64,000 bases of DNA from Corallococcus sp. NCRR. Lineage in GTDB: Bacteria > Myxococcota > Myxococcia > Myxococcales > Myxococcaceae. The stretch lies in assembly GCF_026965535.1 (NCBI RefSeq), contig NZ_CP114039.1, positions 1,364,001 to 1,428,000 on the forward strand. The letters are read 5' to 3'. This document shows positions 51,050-58,423 of this stretch, one piece after another; position 1 is the first letter of the stretch; each line of letters begins with the position of its first letter. A program made the position numbers and the translations under genes. The notes beneath the pieces are model-generated. The model did not search any database, was not told the origin of the DNA, and worked only from the letters and a program-made list of their open reading frames with translations.

Positions 51050-52356
51050 CGTCTTCTCCGCTGCCCTCCGCCTCCGAACCCTCGCCCCGGGCCCGCATCA
51101 ACCTGGTGTGGCTCCTGAGGCTGCGCTGGGGCGTGCTGGTGGGGCAGGCGGTGCTCGTCGCGGTGGCCGCGTGGGGCTTGAAGCTGGTGCTGCCGGTGCC
51201 CGCGCTGGTGGCGCTCTTGGGCATCGAGGCGGTGACGAACGCGGCGGTGCGCGCGGGGCTCGCGAGGGCGAGGCCGGTGGCGGAAGCGGCCATCTTCGGG
51301 CTGATGCTCTGGGACACGCTGGTGCTGACGGGGCTGCTGGCGTTGAGCGGAGGGACGCACAATCCCTTCACGACGCTGTACCTGGTGAACGTGGCGCTGG
51401 GCACGGTGCTGCTGCCGCCGCGCCGCACGTGGGCGATGCTGGGCTTCACGCTGTTGGCGTTCGGGTCGCTGTTCGTGTTGCAGGACGTGACGCTGCCGGG
51501 CCTGGAGAGGCCGGACCACGCGGAGTTGATGCGGCTGCACCTGAGCGGCATGTGGGTGGCGTTCGCGGTGGCGGCGGGCTTCATCGTGTACTTCATCCAA
51601 CGCGTGACACGAGCGCTGGCCCGGCGTGAGCAGGAATTGGAGCAGACGCGGGCAAGGCACGCGAGGCAGGAGAAGGTGGCCTCGCTGGCGACGCTGGCGG
51701 CCGGAGCAGCGCATGAGTTGTCCACGCCGCTGTCCACCATCGCGGTGGTGGCGAAGGAGTTGGAGCGGGCGCTCGCGGCCTCACAGACCTCCGAGTCCGT
51801 AAGAGAGGATTTGAGGCTGATCCGCCAGCAGGTGGACCGCTGCCGGGACGTGCTGGTGCAGATGTCCGCGGACGCGGGCCAGACGACGGGAGAGCCCTTC
51901 CAGGCCATTCCGCTGGAGCGGCTGGTGGAGGAGACGCTGTCGGAGCTGTCCGGCCGTGAGCGAGTGAAGGTGGACGTGCCGGAGGCGCTGAAGCAGCACC
52001 CGGTCCACGGGCCGCCGAGGGCGTTGGCGAGAGTGCTGAGGGGCCTGGTGAAGAACGCGCTCCAGGCGACGCCCAGGGATCGGGGCGTGGAGCTGCGAGT
52101 GCTGCCGGAGGGCACGGGGGCGCGGCTGGAGGTGCGCGACGAAGGCCAGGGCATGCCGGAGGCGGTGCTGACACGCGCGGGTGAGCCGTTCTTCACCACG
52201 AAGGCGCCAGGAGAAGGCATGGGCCTGGGGCTGTTCCTGGCGCGCTCCCTGGCGGAGCAACTGGGCGGGTCGCTGGAGCTGCGCTCGAAGGCAGGAGAAG
52301 GCACGACGGCGAGCCTGAGCCTGCCGGGAGCGGACGCGAAGGAGGCAGCGGCATGA
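51046..52356 (+). CDS. regB: RegB/PrrB-type redox sensor histidine kinase
   Basis: The 436-residue kinase has about six membrane helices (residues 18-190) and the RegB quinone-binding heptad GGTHNPF near residue 102. The H-box is ATLAAGAAHELSTPLSTIAV with His223. The redox-box Cys266 is in RQQVDRCRDVLVQMS, corresponding to Cys265 known in Rhodobacter RegB. The HATPase contains EGMGLGLFLARSLAEQLGG. RegB senses quinone and thiol redox state and phosphorylates RegA. The start at 51046 overlaps the lipoprotein stop (ATGA), and the stop overlaps regA by four bases. Confidence 0.9.
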   Translation: MTSSPLPSASEPSPRARINLVWLLRLRWGVLVGQAVLVAVAAWGLKLVLPVPALVALLGIEAVTNAAVRAGLARARPVAEAAIFGLMLWDTLVLTGLLALSGGTHNPFTTLYLVNVALGTVLLPPRRTWAMLGFTLLAFGSLFVLQDVTLPGLERPDHAELMRLHLSGMWVAFAVAAGFIVYFIQRVTRALARREQELEQTRARHARQEKVASLATLAAGAAHELSTPLSTIAVVAKELERALAASQTSESVREDLRLIRQQVDRCRDVLVQMSADAGQTTGEPFQAIPLERLVEETLSELSGRERVKVDVPEALKQHPVHGPPRALARVLRGLVKNALQATPRDRGVELRVLPEGTGARLEVRDEGQGMPEAVLTRAGEPFFTTKAPGEGMGLGLFLARSLAEQLGGSLELRSKAGEGTTASLSLPGADAKEAAA

Positions 52357-52910
52357 GCACGGCGCCAGTGGATCAACGCCCCAGCCTGCTGCTGGTGGAC
52401 GACGACAGCACCCTGCGCGAGCGATTGGCGCGAGCCTTCCGCGAGCGCGGCTGGGACGTGACGACAGCCGGCAACCACGATGAAGCGATGGCAGCGGCCA
52501 GGCGCGAATCACCGGAGTACGCGGTGGTGGATCTGCGCATGCCGGGCCACAGCGGCCTGGAGTTGGTGCGGGACCTGCTGACGGTGGACGCGTCCACGCG
52601 AGTCATCGTGCTGACGGGCTACGGCAGCATCTCCACGACGGTGGATGCCATCCGGCTGGGAGCCGTGAACTACCTGCCCAAGCCCGCGGACGCGGACGAC
52701 ATCCTGGCGGCGTTCGCGCGAGCCGAAGAGGCCCCCAACGTCGCCGCTCCGGAGACACTCCAGGCACCATCACTGGCACGAGCGGAGTGGGAGCACATCC
52801 ACCGGGTGCTCGCGGACAGCGCCGGAAACATCTCCGAAGCCGCGCGCAAGCTGGGCATCCACCGAAGGTCGCTCCAGCGGAAGCTCCAGAAGTACCCGCC
52901 GTCGCGCTAG
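52353..52910 (+). CDS. regA: RegA/PrrA/ActR-type response regulator
   Basis: The 185-residue protein has a receiver (LLLVDDDSTLRERL, acceptor Asp60 in AVVDLRMPGHSG, Lys in LPKPADADD), a Pro/Ala linker and a Fis-type helix-turn-helix ending LGIHRRSLQRKLQKYPP, the hallmark of RegA. RegA controls respiration, carbon fixation or nitrogen metabolism genes in other bacteria; the local targets are unknown. Its neighbours suggest it may control the barrel and lipoprotein genes at 49434-51049. Confidence 0.92.
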   Translation: MSTAPVDQRPSLLLVDDDSTLRERLARAFRERGWDVTTAGNHDEAMAAARRESPEYAVVDLRMPGHSGLELVRDLLTVDASTRVIVLTGYGSISTTVDAIRLGAVNYLPKPADADDILAAFARAEEAPNVAAPETLQAPSLARAEWEHIHRVLADSAGNISEAARKLGIHRRSLQRKLQKYPPSR

Positions 52911-52968
52911 CGCGTTCCCGCCGTTGCGCCAGCAACTGCACGAAACTAAAATGCAGCTTGATCTTCGC

Positions 52969-53024
52969 GCAACAGGAGAGCCCTTCTGTTGCACAAAAAT
53001 AAAGCGGATCTATACTTTTGTGCA
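52969..53024 (+). promoter_or_regulatory. abiE promoter with two inverted repeats; likely leaderless start
   Basis: Two inverted repeats lie ahead of abiEi: 52969-52978/52983-52992 (ten bases, one mismatch) and 52990-52998/53016-53024 (TGCACAAAA/TTTTGTGCA, perfect, 17-base spacer). A -10-like TATACT (53011-53016) and a weak -35-like TTGCAC (52989-52994) fall inside the second. The -10 ends only seven bases before the ATG, so the mRNA probably has no leader. A related half-site TGCACGAAA lies at 52937-52945. In studied AbiE systems the antitoxin AbiEi represses its own promoter through inverted repeats. Confidence 0.65.
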
Positions 53025-53605
53025 TGAGCATCGAGCCCCCAATCAAGCCGGACTGGGACCAGCTCTATCGAGTGGCGGAGACTCAGGAAGGCCTTTTCAC
53101 GACGCAGCAAGCGGCCCAGGCGGGCTACTCGCCCCAACTGCTCGCTCACTACGTGCGCATCGGCCGGGCCTCACGAGTCCAGCGAGGAATCTACCGGCTG
53201 GTGCACTTCCCAGCAGGCGAGCACGAGGACCTCGTCGCCGTCTGGCTCTGGTCCGAACAGGTGGGAACCTTCTCCCATCAGACCGCGCTTGCGCTCTACG
53301 ACCTCTCCGACGTGCTGCCCGCACGGATCCACCTGACGCTTCCCGAGTCCTGGCGTAAACGCCGCCTGCGCGTACCGAGGCTCGTAGTGCTCCACTATGC
53401 CGACCTGCTCGATTCCGAGCGCCACTGGGTTGGAGCCGTGCGGGCCACGACTCCCTCCAGGACATTGGATGACTGTGCGCGGGGCGCGCTCACTCCGGAC
53501 CTCATGCGGCAGGCCGCGCTGCAAGCCCTGCATCGCGGCATGGTCAGGGGCGCCCTCCCGGCCGTGGAGGAGGCACTGAAGCCCTTTGGAGGCCTCAACG
53601 CGTGA
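53024..53605 (+). CDS. abiEi: AbiEi antitoxin/autorepressor of a type IV toxin-antitoxin system
   Basis: The 193-residue protein has the AbiEi N-terminal winged helix (GLFTTQQAAQAGYSPQLLAH, VQRGIYRLVHFP) and a C-terminal domain (HQTALALYDLSD, then TLDDCARG) as in the family. AbiEi counters AbiEii without binding it directly and represses the operon. ATG 53024 forms the end of the palindrome and is chosen over the TTG two codons earlier. It overlaps abiEii by four bases (GTGA). Codon use looks less GC-biased than in the che genes, consistent with acquisition by transfer. Confidence 0.85.
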   Translation: MSIEPPIKPDWDQLYRVAETQEGLFTTQQAAQAGYSPQLLAHYVRIGRASRVQRGIYRLVHFPAGEHEDLVAVWLWSEQVGTFSHQTALALYDLSDVLPARIHLTLPESWRKRRLRVPRLVVLHYADLLDSERHWVGAVRATTPSRTLDDCARGALTPDLMRQAALQALHRGMVRGALPAVEEALKPFGGLNA

Positions 53606-54507
53606 CGAGCCGCACCTATGCATCGCCCGCGGCCTTCAAACAGGCGCTGGAGCAGCGCCTTCGCCTGGAGGCGAATAAGCGCAACCTGCCACTCGAACGT
53701 CAGCGCGAGCTGCTGGTCTTCAGCCGCTTCCTCGCCCGCGTCCACGCGAAGCTGGGCTCCAACGTCACCCTCAAGGGAGGACTGGTGCTGGAGCTCCGTA
53801 TCGAAGGAGCGCGAGCAACGAAAGACATCGACCTTCGCATCCAAGGCGACCCCAGCGGATTGCTGCTCCAGTTGCAGGACGCCGCAAGGCACGAGCTTGG
53901 CGACTTCTTTTCATTCGAGGTCCGTTCGGATCACGAGCATCCGAAGATCCAGAACGAGGGCATGCGCTACGAAGGACTGCGCTTTCGCGCGGAGTGCCGG
54001 CTCGCACAGAAGATCTACAGCCGCCCTTTCGACGTGGACGTCGCCTTCGGGGAGCCCATGTTGGGAACACCGGATGAGGTCACGGCCCCCGACGTGCTTG
54101 GATTCGCGAACATCGCGCCGCCCCGCCTGCGCCTCTACCCCGTCGAAACCCATCTCGCGGAGAAGCTGCACGCGTACACGATGCCCCGGCTGCGGCCGAA
54201 CTCCCGCGTGAAGGACCTGCCCGACCTCGCACTGCTGGCGCAGGCACGGAAGCCGCTGGAGGCAGAGCGGCTGCGACAAGCGCTCAAGCTGACCTTCGAC
54301 TTCCGCGATACCCATCCACTGCCGGGCACCCTGCCCCCGCCTTCCAGGGATTGGGAGAGGCCCTACGCGGAGATGGCCCAGGACAACCAACTGCCCTGGC
54401 CCACGCTCGAGAAAGTGACCGAGGCCGCGAAGCGCTTTCTCGATCCCGTCCTGGAAGGGGCATCCATCACCACCTGGGACCCGGAAACCGGGTGCTGGCA
54501 CTGCTAA
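53602..54507 (+). CDS. abiEii: AbiEii nucleotidyltransferase toxin
   Basis: The 301-residue toxin has the DUF1814-type nucleotidyltransferase motifs: TLKGGLVLELR (Gly59-Gly60), ATKDIDLRI with Asp75 and Asp77, and THLAEKLHAYT...RVKDLPDLALL toward the middle. AbiEii-type enzymes stop growth of phage-infected cells, and related MenT enzymes add nucleotides to tRNA. GTG 53602 overlaps the antitoxin stop. All key residues that I can identify are present, so the system looks intact. Confidence 0.88.
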   Translation: MTSRTYASPAAFKQALEQRLRLEANKRNLPLERQRELLVFSRFLARVHAKLGSNVTLKGGLVLELRIEGARATKDIDLRIQGDPSGLLLQLQDAARHELGDFFSFEVRSDHEHPKIQNEGMRYEGLRFRAECRLAQKIYSRPFDVDVAFGEPMLGTPDEVTAPDVLGFANIAPPRLRLYPVETHLAEKLHAYTMPRLRPNSRVKDLPDLALLAQARKPLEAERLRQALKLTFDFRDTHPLPGTLPPPSRDWERPYAEMAQDNQLPWPTLEKVTEAAKRFLDPVLEGASITTWDPETGCWHC

Positions 54508-54586
54508 ACATGGGCCGAGGCCTTGAACCCGGCCCTGGATGGGCTTTCATGAAAGCCGCTTCGCATTTCTCTCGTGGGGGATCGAA

Positions 54587-56083
54587 ATGCATTGTCGTTG
54601 GCTCGTCGTCGCACTGCTCCTGCTGTCCGTCGGCTGCGCCCACTCGAAGCGCACGCCCGAAGCAGCACTGCCCAAGTACGAGCATGTCTTCCAGAAGCCG
54701 CTAACGGAGGCGCTCGCGGCCACGCGCCAGCTGCTGGAAGAGCGGGGCTACACGTTCGAGGACACGGAAGACCCCAACCAGCTCGTCACCACCTGGTCCG
54801 AGCCTGAGCGGGTCGACTCGCTCAACACCACCTATACGCGCTACCTGGTGACGGGCATCCAGGTGGCCCCGCGCCAGTCCGTCGTGCGCATCTTCCGCAT
54901 GACCCAGCAGACCCCCGGCAATGACGTCGAGTGGCGCGCGCAGTGGTGGAAGGTCGGCGTGCAGCGATGGGAGCAGACCTCGAATCCCTTCGTGAAGGAG
55001 GCGGACTTCAGCCAGGACGATGCGATGACCAAGCGGCTGTCCATGCTGCGCGCCGCCCAACAGGGCACCCGCGACCTGGACCTGGAGCAGGCCCTCACCC
55101 TGCGGCTGGAGTCCGCGCCCTCCGTCGAAGTCCTCGCGGGCAACGTGGCGGAGGAGAAGCGCCCCGACCCCGTCCGCGCGCCCGAGTTCTACCTGGAGCG
55201 CTGGAAGGAAGAAGCCGTCGCCGCGGGCCCGTGCACCACGCCCGTGCGCGGACTGGCGGAGCTGCTGCACCCGGGCCTCACGCTGCTCATCGGCGAGCAG
55301 CTGGGCACCAACGAAGTGCCGGACGTCGTGGGCCACTTGGTGTGCCAGGCCGCGCGGACAGGGCTCGCCGTGGTGCTGGGCCTGTCGCTCCCCGAAACGG
55401 AGCAGGCGCGCGTGGACAGGTACCTCTCCAGCCCCGGCGCCCCGGCGGACCAGGACGCGCTGCTGGAGGGTCGCTTCTGGACCCGCACCTACCAGGACGG
55501 CCGCAGCAGCCGCGCCATCATGGACCTCATCGACCGCGTGCGGGCCCTGCGCGCGGCGGGCCTGCGCGTGACGGTGGTGGCCTACGACACGGACGTGCTC
55601 AACGGCAGCGAACGCGACGCCGCCCAGGCCCAGGTCTGGACGAAGCGCCGTGCCGCGAAGCCGCACGAGGTCCAGGTGGTGCTCGCGGGCAACACGCATA
55701 CCCAGATGAGGAAGGGCACGCAGTGGGACCCGTCCTTCACGCCCATGGCCCACTTGATGAAAGAGAACCGCTCGCTCGTCGTGCTGGAGATGAGCTACGC
55801 GCAGGGCCTGCGCTGGGGCTGTGACCTGGACCGCGACAGCAAGCTGGTCTGCGGCATCGTGGGCGCCACGCCCGCCCCGGAGGTGGCCGCCCGCCCCGGC
55901 CTGAGCCCGTATATCCAGCTGCGCGAGACCGCTCCCAATGAGCCCTTCCAGGGCCTGCTGTACGTGGGCAGGCTCACCGCCTCCCTGCCAGCCATCCTCG
56001 GGCGCCACGTGGAACCGCCGAAAGACCCCCGCCAGGCCCCCCGGACCCCGGGCCGCGACAGGCCCCTCCCGGGCGTCTTCTAG
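54587..56083 (+). CDS. Lipoprotein with ChaN/EreA-like (Tiki-type) C-terminal domain
   Basis: The 498-residue protein has a lipoprotein signal (VVALLLLSVGC, Cys about 17), an N-terminal domain of about 190 residues (YEHVFQKPLTEALAATRQLL; possibly a copy of the NlpC/DUF4136-like strand-helix fold), and a C-terminal domain with LLIGEQLGTNEVPDVVGHLV and VQVVLAGNTHTQMRKG. That E-x-L-GT plus NTH arrangement is seen in the haem-uptake ChaN, erythromycin esterase and Tiki protease families. The role is unknown. ATG 54587 starts the signal peptide. It stands alone 79 bases after abiEii. Confidence 0.72.
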   Translation: MHCRWLVVALLLLSVGCAHSKRTPEAALPKYEHVFQKPLTEALAATRQLLEERGYTFEDTEDPNQLVTTWSEPERVDSLNTTYTRYLVTGIQVAPRQSVVRIFRMTQQTPGNDVEWRAQWWKVGVQRWEQTSNPFVKEADFSQDDAMTKRLSMLRAAQQGTRDLDLEQALTLRLESAPSVEVLAGNVAEEKRPDPVRAPEFYLERWKEEAVAAGPCTTPVRGLAELLHPGLTLLIGEQLGTNEVPDVVGHLVCQAARTGLAVVLGLSLPETEQARVDRYLSSPGAPADQDALLEGRFWTRTYQDGRSSRAIMDLIDRVRALRAAGLRVTVVAYDTDVLNGSERDAAQAQVWTKRRAAKPHEVQVVLAGNTHTQMRKGTQWDPSFTPMAHLMKENRSLVVLEMSYAQGLRWGCDLDRDSKLVCGIVGATPAPEVAARPGLSPYIQLRETAPNEPFQGLLYVGRLTASLPAILGRHVEPPKDPRQAPRTPGRDRPLPGVF

Positions 56084-56109: not shown

Positions 56110-56144
56110 TTAACGTCAGGGTTAATCATTCACCCTGACGTTAA
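56110..56144 (+). promoter_or_regulatory. 13-base perfect inverted repeat, probable ArsR-family operator
   Basis: TTAACGTCAGGGT (56110-56122) is exactly mirrored by ACCCTGACGTTAA (56132-56144), with a nine-base spacer. It lies 28 bases before a VOC gene that is followed by an ArsR-family repressor gene, so it is most likely that repressor's binding site. It lacks a T-run and is AT-rich, so it is not a typical terminator. Confidence 0.7.
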
Positions 56145-56172: not shown

Positions 56173-56604
56173 ATGAAGCCCATCCCCGAGGACTGGCCGC
56201 GCATCTCCTCCAGCCTCTTCTACGTGGACGCCCCCGCCGCCATCGACTGGCTGGAGCGCGCGTTCGGCTTCCAGACGCGCCTCAAGGTGGAGGGCGCGGA
56301 CAACACCATCGTGCACGCGGAGCTGGCCTACGGCGACGGCGTCATCATGGTGAACTCCTCCGGGCGCCACGGCCTCCACCAGAGCCCCCGGCTGCACGGG
56401 GGCGTCAACACGCAGACCCTCACGGTCTACGTGGACGACGTGGACGCCCACTGCGCCCAGGCGCGTGCGGCCGGCGCCGTCGTCATCCAGGAGCCGGAGA
56501 CCAAGAACTACGGCGACGACTGGGGCACCAACCGCACCTACGGCGCCGAGGACCTCGAAGGCCACCGCTGGTGGTTCACCCAGCGCGTCTTCGGGCCGAA
56601 GTAG
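56173..56604 (+). CDS. VOC (glyoxalase-like) protein of an ArsR/SRPBCC operon
   Basis: The 143-residue protein has the VOC fold: SSSLFYVDAPAAIDWLERAFGFQTR, DGVIMVNSS, TLTVYVDDVDAHCAQARAAG and a closing EDLEGHRWWFTQRVFG typical of the PhnB-like branch. Substrate unknown. Its ATG lies just after the palindrome. The ArsR gene starts 11 bases after its stop. VOC, ArsR and SRPBCC genes commonly cluster in bacteria. Confidence 0.88.
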   Translation: MKPIPEDWPRISSSLFYVDAPAAIDWLERAFGFQTRLKVEGADNTIVHAELAYGDGVIMVNSSGRHGLHQSPRLHGGVNTQTLTVYVDDVDAHCAQARAAGAVVIQEPETKNYGDDWGTNRTYGAEDLEGHRWWFTQRVFGPK

Positions 56605-57478: not shown

Positions 57479-58423
57479 CTACTTGCAGGGGCCGCAGTCC
57501 GCCGCGCAGCTGTCCGCCGTGTTGCTGGCGCCGCACTTCTCCGTCAACTGGCACACGCCGTCACCGCAGCGGTAGATGTCCTGGGGGAGCATGCGCGTGG
57601 TGATGGGCCGGTAGCTCACGCCGTTGTACGTGCAGCGCGTGTAGTACGTCCGCGTGGCGTCCAGCGTGCAGTAGTACCGGCACGCCCCCACGTGCTTCAT
57701 CGGCGTGCACGCCGTCGTGTCGCTCCAGGACGACAGGCCGCAGGTGCGCACCGTGCTCTCGTCGTAGTCCAGGTACGCGCCGTCGTTCGCCGCGAACGTG
57801 CCCTCCCCCGTGAAGAGGTTGCCGAAGAAGCACGCTTCCTTCTCATTGTATGTATTCAGCTCGTCCGTGGAGTACGGCATCGCCCCGCCCACCGCGTCGC
57901 GCCCCAGCACGGAGATGTTCACGTGCACGCCGTACTTGTTCGCGTGCGCCGCCAGACACGCGCTCACCACCTGCTGCTCCGCCACCGTCGCCGGCTGCCC
58001 GCCCGCCCACCCCGGCGCCAATCCCAGACTCCCGCTCCACGTGTAGCTCTTCCCCGTGGAAGGCGACTGGTACGTCAGCGTCATCCCCGCCGCCATCGAG
58101 CACTGCACCACGTAGCGCATCACCATGTCCGCCGACGCGGGGTCCTGGCTGAACCAGGTCTGGAACCCGTTCGTGGACAGGCCATTCGTCGACAGGCCAT
58201 TGGTGGACAGGCCATTCGTCGACAAGCCATTGGTGGACAGGCCGTTCGTCGACAGGCCATTCGTCGACAAGCCATTGGTGGAGACCAGTTCGGCGGAGGA
58301 CCGGCCCGTCAGCTCGGCGCCTTCGTCGAGCGGAGCGCCGCAGCCCACCAGCGCCGCGGCCAGACAGAGCGCCGTCCAGGGGGAGGAACGGAATGAAACG
58401 TCGAGAGGGGGATTGAGGTGCAT
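57479..58423 (-). CDS. Lipoprotein with eight STNGL repeats and Cys-rich C-terminus
   Basis: The 314-residue protein has a lipoprotein signal (LCLAAALVGC), then seven STNGL units and one STNGF, and a globular domain with about 15 Cys, ending CGDGVCQLTEKCGAS...CAADCGPCK, a disulfide-rich knot-like tail similar to the Cys-rich motifs often found in Myxococcota surface proteins. GGAGG precedes the ATG by about eight bases. The STNGL region probably forms a beta-stacked spacer; the rest is unknown. It is the only gene of its kind here, 195 bases from the kinase gene behind it. Confidence 0.85.
   Translation of the reverse strand: MHLNPPLDVSFRSSPWTALCLAAALVGCGAPLDEGAELTGRSSAELVSTNGLSTNGLSTNGLSTNGLSTNGLSTNGLSTNGLSTNGFQTWFSQDPASADMVMRYVVQCSMAAGMTLTYQSPSTGKSYTWSGSLGLAPGWAGGQPATVAEQQVVSACLAAHANKYGVHVNISVLGRDAVGGAMPYSTDELNTYNEKEACFFGNLFTGEGTFAANDGAYLDYDESTVRTCGLSSWSDTTACTPMKHVGACRYYCTLDATRTYYTRCTYNGVSYRPITTRMLPQDIYRCGDGVCQLTEKCGASNTADSCAADCGPCK
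58163..58282 (-). repeat. Eight tandem 15-base units coding STNGL/STNGF
   Basis: Eight perfect-length 15-base units run in frame through the lipoprotein gene. Units alternate between a GTCGAC and a GTGGAC version of the Ser-Thr codons (on the plus strand), giving a 30-base higher-order period, except at 58233-58262 where two GTCGAC-type units adjoin. This points to recent unequal duplication. Confidence 0.9.

Follow-up and report, generated by a model that had tools for sequence, protein, structure and literature searches.

A Corallococcus AbiE operon with a conserved promoter-operator abutting the start codon of a predicted leaderless antitoxin gene

The 64-kb stretch of DNA analysed here (the window) carries on its plus strand, at 53024-54507, two genes, abiEi (53024-53605) and abiEii (53602-54507), which, judged by their families and layout, form an operon that is an AbiE, a type IV toxin-antitoxin system. 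We consider it probable (about 0.86) that the antitoxin gene of this operon is expressed as a leaderless mRNA from a promoter that is repressed by its own product, AbiEi. The best reading of the data is that AbiEi represses this promoter and that AbiEii would be translated through coupling and a Shine-Dalgarno of its own. Such a reading is built on the identity of the genes, the dyad, the promoter hexamers, the lack of a Shine-Dalgarno before abiEi, a geometry conserved among relatives and a genome-wide specificity of the site, all of them read from DNA; the transcription start, AbiEi binding, repression, coupling, toxicity and phage defence are predicted from there, the last being assumed from family membership. 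The features of the locus are the following.

52937-52971, plus strand: O1, upstream dyad, left arm TGCACGAAACTAAA and degenerate right arm TTGATCTTCGCGCA (10/14), 53 bp upstream of O2
52989-52994, plus strand: -35 hexamer TTGCAC, whose last five bases open the left arm of O2
52990-53024, plus strand: O2, promoter-operator dyad, 14-nt arms around 7 nt, 12/14 complementary, a geometry common to relatives
53011-53016, plus strand: -10 hexamer TATACT (alternative register TACTTT, 53013-53018)
53024-53026, plus strand: start codon ATG, the predicted transcription start of a leaderless mRNA, as suggested by the operator gap and the TANNNT of relatives
53024-53605, plus strand: abiEi, PF13338 (4.9e-12, above cut-off), PADLOC AbiEi (7.7e-71), best match of the model 6y8q
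53129-53158, plus strand: codons of residues 36-45, predicted recognition helix (37-45 in the model)
53588-53592, plus strand: GGAGG, Shine-Dalgarno of abiEii within the 3' end of abiEi (pairing -9.3 kcal/mol, versus -3.3 before abiEi)
53602-53605, plus strand: GTGA stop-start overlap of abiEi and abiEii; an NTGA overlap occurs in 89 of 95 full-length loci
53602-54507, plus strand: abiEii, nucleotidyltransferase-type toxin (by family) of 301 aa, PF08843 (6.3e-33), PADLOC AbiEii (1.2e-92)

The operon and its promoter-operator

The preliminary description had named this locus as AbiE, an identity borne out by Pfam, PADLOC and the relatives. Indeed, an AbiEi-family and an AbiEii-family protein, the antitoxin-toxin order with overlapping genes and the inverted repeats in the promoter were all found here; NCBIfam gave no match for either protein. 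The AlphaFold model of AbiEi, computed from 45 input sequences, has a mean pLDDT of 90.5, and the four PDB chains that match it at E <=0.001 are all S. agalactiae AbiEi or M. tuberculosis Rv2827c, with 6y8q (S. agalactiae AbiEi) and 1zel (Rv2827c) as top matches. The PDB relatives of AbiEii are Rv1045 and AbiGII. When compared by eye with the motifs quoted in the available part of PMC3985639, AbiEii exhibits motifs I and II as GG and DID, 14 residues apart, with an R four residues before the first D, motif IV as KDLPD, and motif III as KLHAYTMPR, where the R stands one place later than in KLxAaxxR.

The abiEi frame in the list of open reading frames opens at an in-frame TTG (53018), and the promoter leads to an ATG: TTGCAC is followed by a 16-bp spacer, TATACT, 7 bases and the ATG at 53024. 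The 35-bp O2 is superimposed on this promoter, as its left arm TGCACAAAAATAAA (52990-53003) takes in five of the six bases of the -35 and its right arm TATACTTTTGTGCA (53011-53024) contains the -10 and has the A of the ATG as its last base. A -35/-10 promoter lying under a palindrome, with the -10 ending seven bases before the ATG, had been proposed previously, and both the sequence and the relatives agree with it. The left arm of the second repeat was also rightly placed on the -35, but its right arm does not simply lie between the -10 and the ATG: the shorter arm TTTTGTGCA (53016-53024) overlaps the -10 by its final T and reaches the A of the ATG, and the full 14-nt arm contains the -10. The idea that bound protein might hinder ribosome access is without support, because ribosomes on an RNA starting at AUG are out of reach of a repressor bound to DNA. 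The first inverted repeat of the preliminary description came without coordinates and is perhaps CAACAG/CTGTTG (52970-52991); among four abiE relatives of the same genus inspected by eye, a similar pair (GCAACA/TGTTGC) is found in L003 only, and L002, L004 and L005 are devoid of it.

Two positions of the 64-kb window score at least 12/14 with the O2 geometry, the other one being 56110 (score 13), and a score of 12 with any middle of 3-15 nt was reached by 1 of 500 dinucleotide shuffles of the intergenic region. A promoter scan of 52000-55500 gave no match; TTGCAC and TATACT, which agree with the E. coli consensus at 3/6 and 5/6 positions, respectively, fall below its cut-off, which is too strict for such a promoter. 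No Shine-Dalgarno is present upstream of abiEi in the window.

The dyad at 56110-56144, TTAACGTCAGGGTTAATCATTCACCCTGACGTTAA, is near-perfect (13/14 arm pairs) and precedes a VOC-like gene at 56173, itself followed at 56571 by an ArsR-like regulator frame (both named by eye), of which this dyad may be the operator. Further downstream, at 57479-58423 on the minus strand, a frame with tandem LSTNG repeats after an apparent lipoprotein signal was noticed by eye.

Conservation of the layout among relatives

An AbiEi match at 1e-5 was obtained in 55 of 145 genomes of the order, from which 44 loci were taken, the window's own included and most weak matches left out, and a scan of one genome per species contributed the best 80 of 204 relatives. 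These 124 loci amount to 111 distinct upstream regions. Named isolates with the layout described below include Corallococcus terminator, Sorangium cellulosum So ce26, Pyxidicoccus caerfyrddinensis, Myxococcus xanthus AM003 (L129) and Lujinxingia vulgaris; many other relatives are metagenome-assembled genomes (MAGs), whose taxonomy may be wrong. Of 102 loci, 10 gave no adjacent AbiEii (partial matches in two of these) and a further 2 were too short for a verdict; the AbiEi of L038 is truncated at 134 aa, and the usual overlap is missing at the end of L012, L014 and L027.

At least 18 of the 28 letters of the consensus TTGCACGAAACTAAA-N7-TTTAGTTTCGTGC are present in 106 of the 111 upstream regions, and in 87 of these 106 the operator directly adjoins the first in-frame start codon. 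The gap is 1 nt in 8 loci, 2 in 1, 3 in 4, 5 in 2, 12 in 1, 28 in 1 and undefined in 2, which makes 102/106 loci with a gap of at most 5 nt and 19/106 with a gap other than 0. The gap of 28 nt belongs to L080, where the best-scoring site lies upstream and another dyad adjoins the ATG. The five low scorers are L036, L040 and L132, which have gap 0 and diverged letters, as well as L041 and L043; the place of the start codon holds CTG in L139 and AGG in L124. From the upstream stop to the conserved core, 48 of the 106 loci offer a single possible in-frame ATG, GTG or TTG, and the gap is 0 in 39 of these 48. Moreover, the operator follows the start codon when the length of the N-terminus varies, since the starts of the 87 gap-0 loci are found at -42, -36, -33, -30, -27, -24, -21 and -18 from the core, with -33 accounting for 71. 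Of 17 arm pairs, two change together to a degree exceeding all of 2000 shuffles and four others exceed all but 6-27, relatedness being not removed from these counts; the remaining pairs present no covariation that stands out.

The promoter letters are conserved along with the dyad. TTG is found at the place of the -35 in 78 of the 87 gap-0 loci, and 85 of them have a TANNNT ending 5-7 nt ahead of the start codon, exactly 6 nt in 71; at controls the same three registers are occupied at 2.7% of upstream positions and 0.27% within genes. In its common form the promoter has 17 bp between the hexamers and 6 nt after the -10; in the window these are 16 bp and 7 nt. The available text of PMC3160421 gives as criterion for leaderless genes a TANNNT about 12 bp before the start codon and no Shine-Dalgarno; here, TATACT begins 13 bp before the ATG. 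With a cut-off of -6 kcal/mol or better for pairing to the 16S tail, a Shine-Dalgarno precedes 1 of 102 abiEi, versus 66 of 89 NTGA-overlapping abiEii and 6 of the shuffled abiEi stretches. As a rough control within the window, 44 genes were picked by codon bias: TANNNT lies before a candidate start in two, namely abiEi and a start 34 codons inside another frame, and Shine-Dalgarno pairing before some candidate start in 40. Twenty loci of distant AbiEi paralogues from the window's order served as a second control, a rough one as their start codons are uncertain: TANNNT at 5-7 nt occurs in 1/20, at a doubtful TTG, and Shine-Dalgarno pairing of -6 kcal/mol or better before some candidate start in 13/20. 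The operator gap of the relatives, the TANNNT and the lack of Shine-Dalgarno thus support the previously proposed leaderless arrangement with no ribosome site, in which the transcription start is predicted. This arrangement was also called unusual, which is true by comparison with the Streptococcus system but not within this AbiEi lineage, where it is the rule among the loci compared.

The half-site TGCACGAAA is indeed present at 52937-52945, as the preliminary description had it; it is not a lone third half-site, however, but the left arm of the degenerate dyad O1. Taken alone, O1 is unremarkable, as 119 positions of the window score at least 10/14, and it is the relatives that support a role as operator. 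An O1-type site, defined by at least 19/28 operator letters, was found in 31 of the 87 loci and in none of 87 shuffled copies, and it lies 51-53 bp from O2 in 18 of the 31. TTG and TANNNT occur together in 0/31 O1 sites versus 28/31 O2 sites of the same loci (TANNNT alone in 11/31 O1, TTG alone in 2/31), and RTG directly follows O1 in 2/31. O1 as a promoter in its own right was ruled out, as none of the 31 combines the two elements. We read the letters common to O1 and O2 as those presumably recognised by the repressor, and the letters confined to O2 as those of the RNA polymerase. The weakest arm pair of O2, 12:24, is complementary in 25% of O2 versus 45% of O1 sites, which we would explain by the A of the common -10 at this place; it still weakens the palindrome.

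Site recognition, proposed mechanism and rival readings

In the 9,787,125-base single-contig genome, the half-site with at most one mismatch occurs twice, both times at abiE, and the control gave 0. Similarly, a strict palindrome has 23 matches in 14 of the 145 genomes of the order (reversed control, 0), of which 21 adjoin abiEi; the other two lie in G100 and G102, neither of which gave an abiEi match. Inspection by eye revealed no AbiEi frame behind these two sites, though one of them is followed by letters resembling the beginning of abiEi. Two genomes of group g19 (loci L049 and L050) retain, by eye, two abiE operators each and have no abiEi match; these sites could be remnants of a lost operon or stand-alone operators.

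Associations between AbiEi residues and operator letters were ranked by normalised mutual information over 102 loci, with 190 residue columns and 5 operator positions (950 comparisons). The top two link residue 38 to position 12 and residue 37 to position 11, both residues being the first of the modelled helix (37-45); residue 185, ranked third, is outside the helix, and for positions 6, 9 and 10 most of the residues indicated lie in other parts of the protein. When an operator has ACGG or AGGG at positions 9-12, its AbiEi has STH (16/16); with xxTA it has SPQ (42/53), and with xxTT a P at residue 38 (10/14). On a tree made without these columns, each of four tests gave, over supported branches, a mean of 0.3-1.5 concordant independent pairs and 0 opposed, the other pairs showing no difference, and the association is not significant because there are too few independent changes. 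This covariation, strong as a raw signal, was for the same reason dropped as a proof of binding and kept as support: the bases of the operator tend to change along with the predicted recognition helix.

In the proposed mechanism, two AbiEi subunits would sit on O2, whose half-sites are 21 bp apart (about two helical turns), covering the -35, the -10 and +1 and excluding RNA polymerase, and O1, 53 bp upstream (about five turns), would provide extra AbiEi binding that could be cooperative or titrating. When AbiEi is scarce, transcription would start at the ATG or within a base or two, and the abiEi mRNA would be translated from its 5' AUG without a Shine-Dalgarno, AbiEii being made from its own GGAGG and by coupling through the GTGA overlap.

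It is improbable that the main transcript comes from further upstream, by read-through or from an unseen promoter, with a leader devoid of Shine-Dalgarno and the dyad acting as a roadblock operator. A response-regulator gene (52353-52910) does lie on the same strand with a gap of 113 bp, and a terminator scan of 52000-55500 found none, so that read-through is possible. However, the -35 and -10 letters of O2 are spaced as in a promoter that initiates transcription, which is not so in its sister O1, TANNNT keeps its 5-7 nt distance in 85/87 loci, and the operator shifts together with the start codon as the N-terminus gains or loses length. We give very little credit to a regulator other than AbiEi reading the dyads. 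The covariation is not significant on the tree and AbiEi binding is itself predicted, which leaves room for such a regulator, but the half-site is confined to the abiE locus in its own genome, the strict sites of the order lie at abiE loci or in two genomes now without abiEi, and the strongest covariation falls on the predicted recognition helix; moreover, known AbiEi and Rv2827c bind inverted repeats at their own promoters, according to the available text of PMC3985639 and PMC7319586. Hardly conceivable, finally, is a true abiEi start downstream, at the in-frame GTG at 53072, which would make the dyad an ordinary operator with a leader behind it: P9 and W11, encoded upstream of this GTG, are invariant in 45 sequences, and the 48 loci with a sole in-frame start have it adjoining the operator in 39 cases.

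Autorepression of a leaderless antitoxin gene might have a further meaning, which we regard as rather unlikely. The split of initiation could be a switch, the leaderless antitoxin and the Shine-Dalgarno-led, coupled toxin making the antitoxin:toxin ratio report the state of the ribosomes. What would be sensed is free 30S versus 70S, or damage to 16S rRNA at its anti-Shine-Dalgarno end, possibly inflicted by phage infection or by other toxins, and the fusion of operator, promoter and start codon would be kept across phyla as any leader would break the sensing.

Genomic setting, distribution and comparison with known systems

The abiE operon is flanked by the response-regulator gene and by a gene that begins near 54539. 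Both flanks are near full-length in 15 of 16 genomes of the genus, G066 being without the downstream flank. The space between them is nearly empty (about 77-123 bp) in 7 of the 15; the site (52911-54538) holds abiE in the window's genome and in G070, and in the remaining 6 its content measures 0.6 to 20 kb. The 20-kb insert of G059 includes abiE, which is elsewhere in G068 and G071, and 5 of the 16 genomes have an abiE of this type. Such a variable insertion site is in keeping with a mobile module. Other Corallococcus inserts at this place (loci L218-L226) carry RHS repeats, Imm5, IS66, an M13 peptidase, MacB/FtsX and Ig/cadherin-like domains, as surveyed on 9 proteins scanned with Pfam (2 without match) and 10 with PADLOC. 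A general defence island was ruled out on these contents, the sole PADLOC match being weak (5.7e-4) and ignored.

A profile search of the phylum matched 51 of 195 genomes. Judged from the loci compared, the fused layout also occurs outside the myxobacteria. Matches were obtained in 25 of 392 genomes from the phylum of a MAG titled Planctomycetota, some of which were already among the best 80 relatives. Among 30 loci compared there, the 13 closest have a leader of at most 3 nt by operator or TANNNT: 12 with an operator of at least 19/28 (9 with gap 0, 3 with gap 3) and L269 by TANNNT alone; less similar loci (about 39-46% identity) show mixed layouts. In the phylum sample of a MAG titled Gammaproteobacteria, 1 of 398 genomes matched, and this copy may be misbinned since the match was the starting genome only. 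Phages gave one weak match, and viral contigs one partial match among 36 candidate stretches.

Twelve plasmid AbiEi loci were picked for varied organisms among the 40 listed of 338 records (309 of them Enterococcus). TANNNT stands exactly 6 nt before the annotated start in 9 of the 12, from Simkania, Thermus parvatiensis, Deinococcus, Mycobacterium branderi, Dietzia, three Rhodococcus and Curtobacterium; two of these nine, L249 and L256, also have Shine-Dalgarno-like pairing (-5.8 and -8.3). On plasmid pSn of Simkania negevensis (L247), a perfect 14-bp dyad made of other letters ends at the ATG, and the promoter TTGACA-18-TAGGTT-6-ATG has the same geometry with a different operator code. The loci of Neochlamydia and of one T. 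thermophilus plasmid are without TANNNT, and their annotated starts look truncated. The Enterococcus lactis locus has no TANNNT, a strong Shine-Dalgarno (-12.3) and a dyad further up. Bacillota may be a leadered exception, on two cases, E. lactis here and S. agalactiae in print.

The regulation of AbiE so far rests on S. agalactiae, which is leadered, and on M. tuberculosis Rv2827c, in the available text of PMC3985639 and PMC7319586. The S. agalactiae abiE resembles the operon described here in being a bicistron with a 4-nt overlap, inverted repeats of which one holds the -35, and an antitoxin of the same fold, and the negative autoregulation by AbiEi that we propose is known there (Dy et al., 2014, PMC3985639, available text). 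In that system, however, transcription starts 26 bp before the ATG, with a ribosome binding site marked and two 23-bp repeats 3 bp apart, whereas here 14-nt arms around 7 nt end at the start codon, with no leader predicted and no Shine-Dalgarno. The M. tuberculosis rv2827c-rv2826c operon (Beck et al., 2020, PMC7319586) is similar in its two tandem pairs of inverted repeats, the proximal one lying over the promoter, in a region that extends to -1 relative to the start codon; it differs by 23-bp repeats with 13-bp gaps, pairs 4 bp apart and a larger antitoxin. The part of PMC7319586 on which this comparison draws gives four sites for Rv2827c and does not describe the mRNA as leaderless.

Leaderless toxin-antitoxin mRNAs as such are already known, since 32 of 37 M. 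tuberculosis pairs with a primary start are leaderless (Cortes et al., 2013, PMC3898074, available text). The starts are measured there and inferred here; Rv2827c has 0 occurrences in the main text of that paper, and the part consulted describes no AbiE operator geometry. The acuR-acuI-dddL operon of Rhodobacter sphaeroides, as given in the accessible portion of PMC3017554, also begins with an autoregulated repressor gene in a leaderless operon with a dyad over the promoter, and later genes are translated better than the first, which we count as a likeness. It differs by a TetR-family regulator, a catabolic operon, an acrylate inducer, the lack of a toxin-antitoxin and the operator TAATAGAC-n6-GTCTATTA.

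A search limited to the open-access literature found no report of a leaderless AbiE. What is new by comparison with these systems is the conserved fusion of operator, promoter and start codon over about a hundred loci, with a toxin gene that usually has a Shine-Dalgarno, which raises the question of why the antitoxin rather than the toxin is without one. The layout helps to fix abiEi start codons in annotation, and the comparison yields an operator consensus, a separation of operator from promoter letters (O1 versus O2) and a candidate recognition code for AbiEi.
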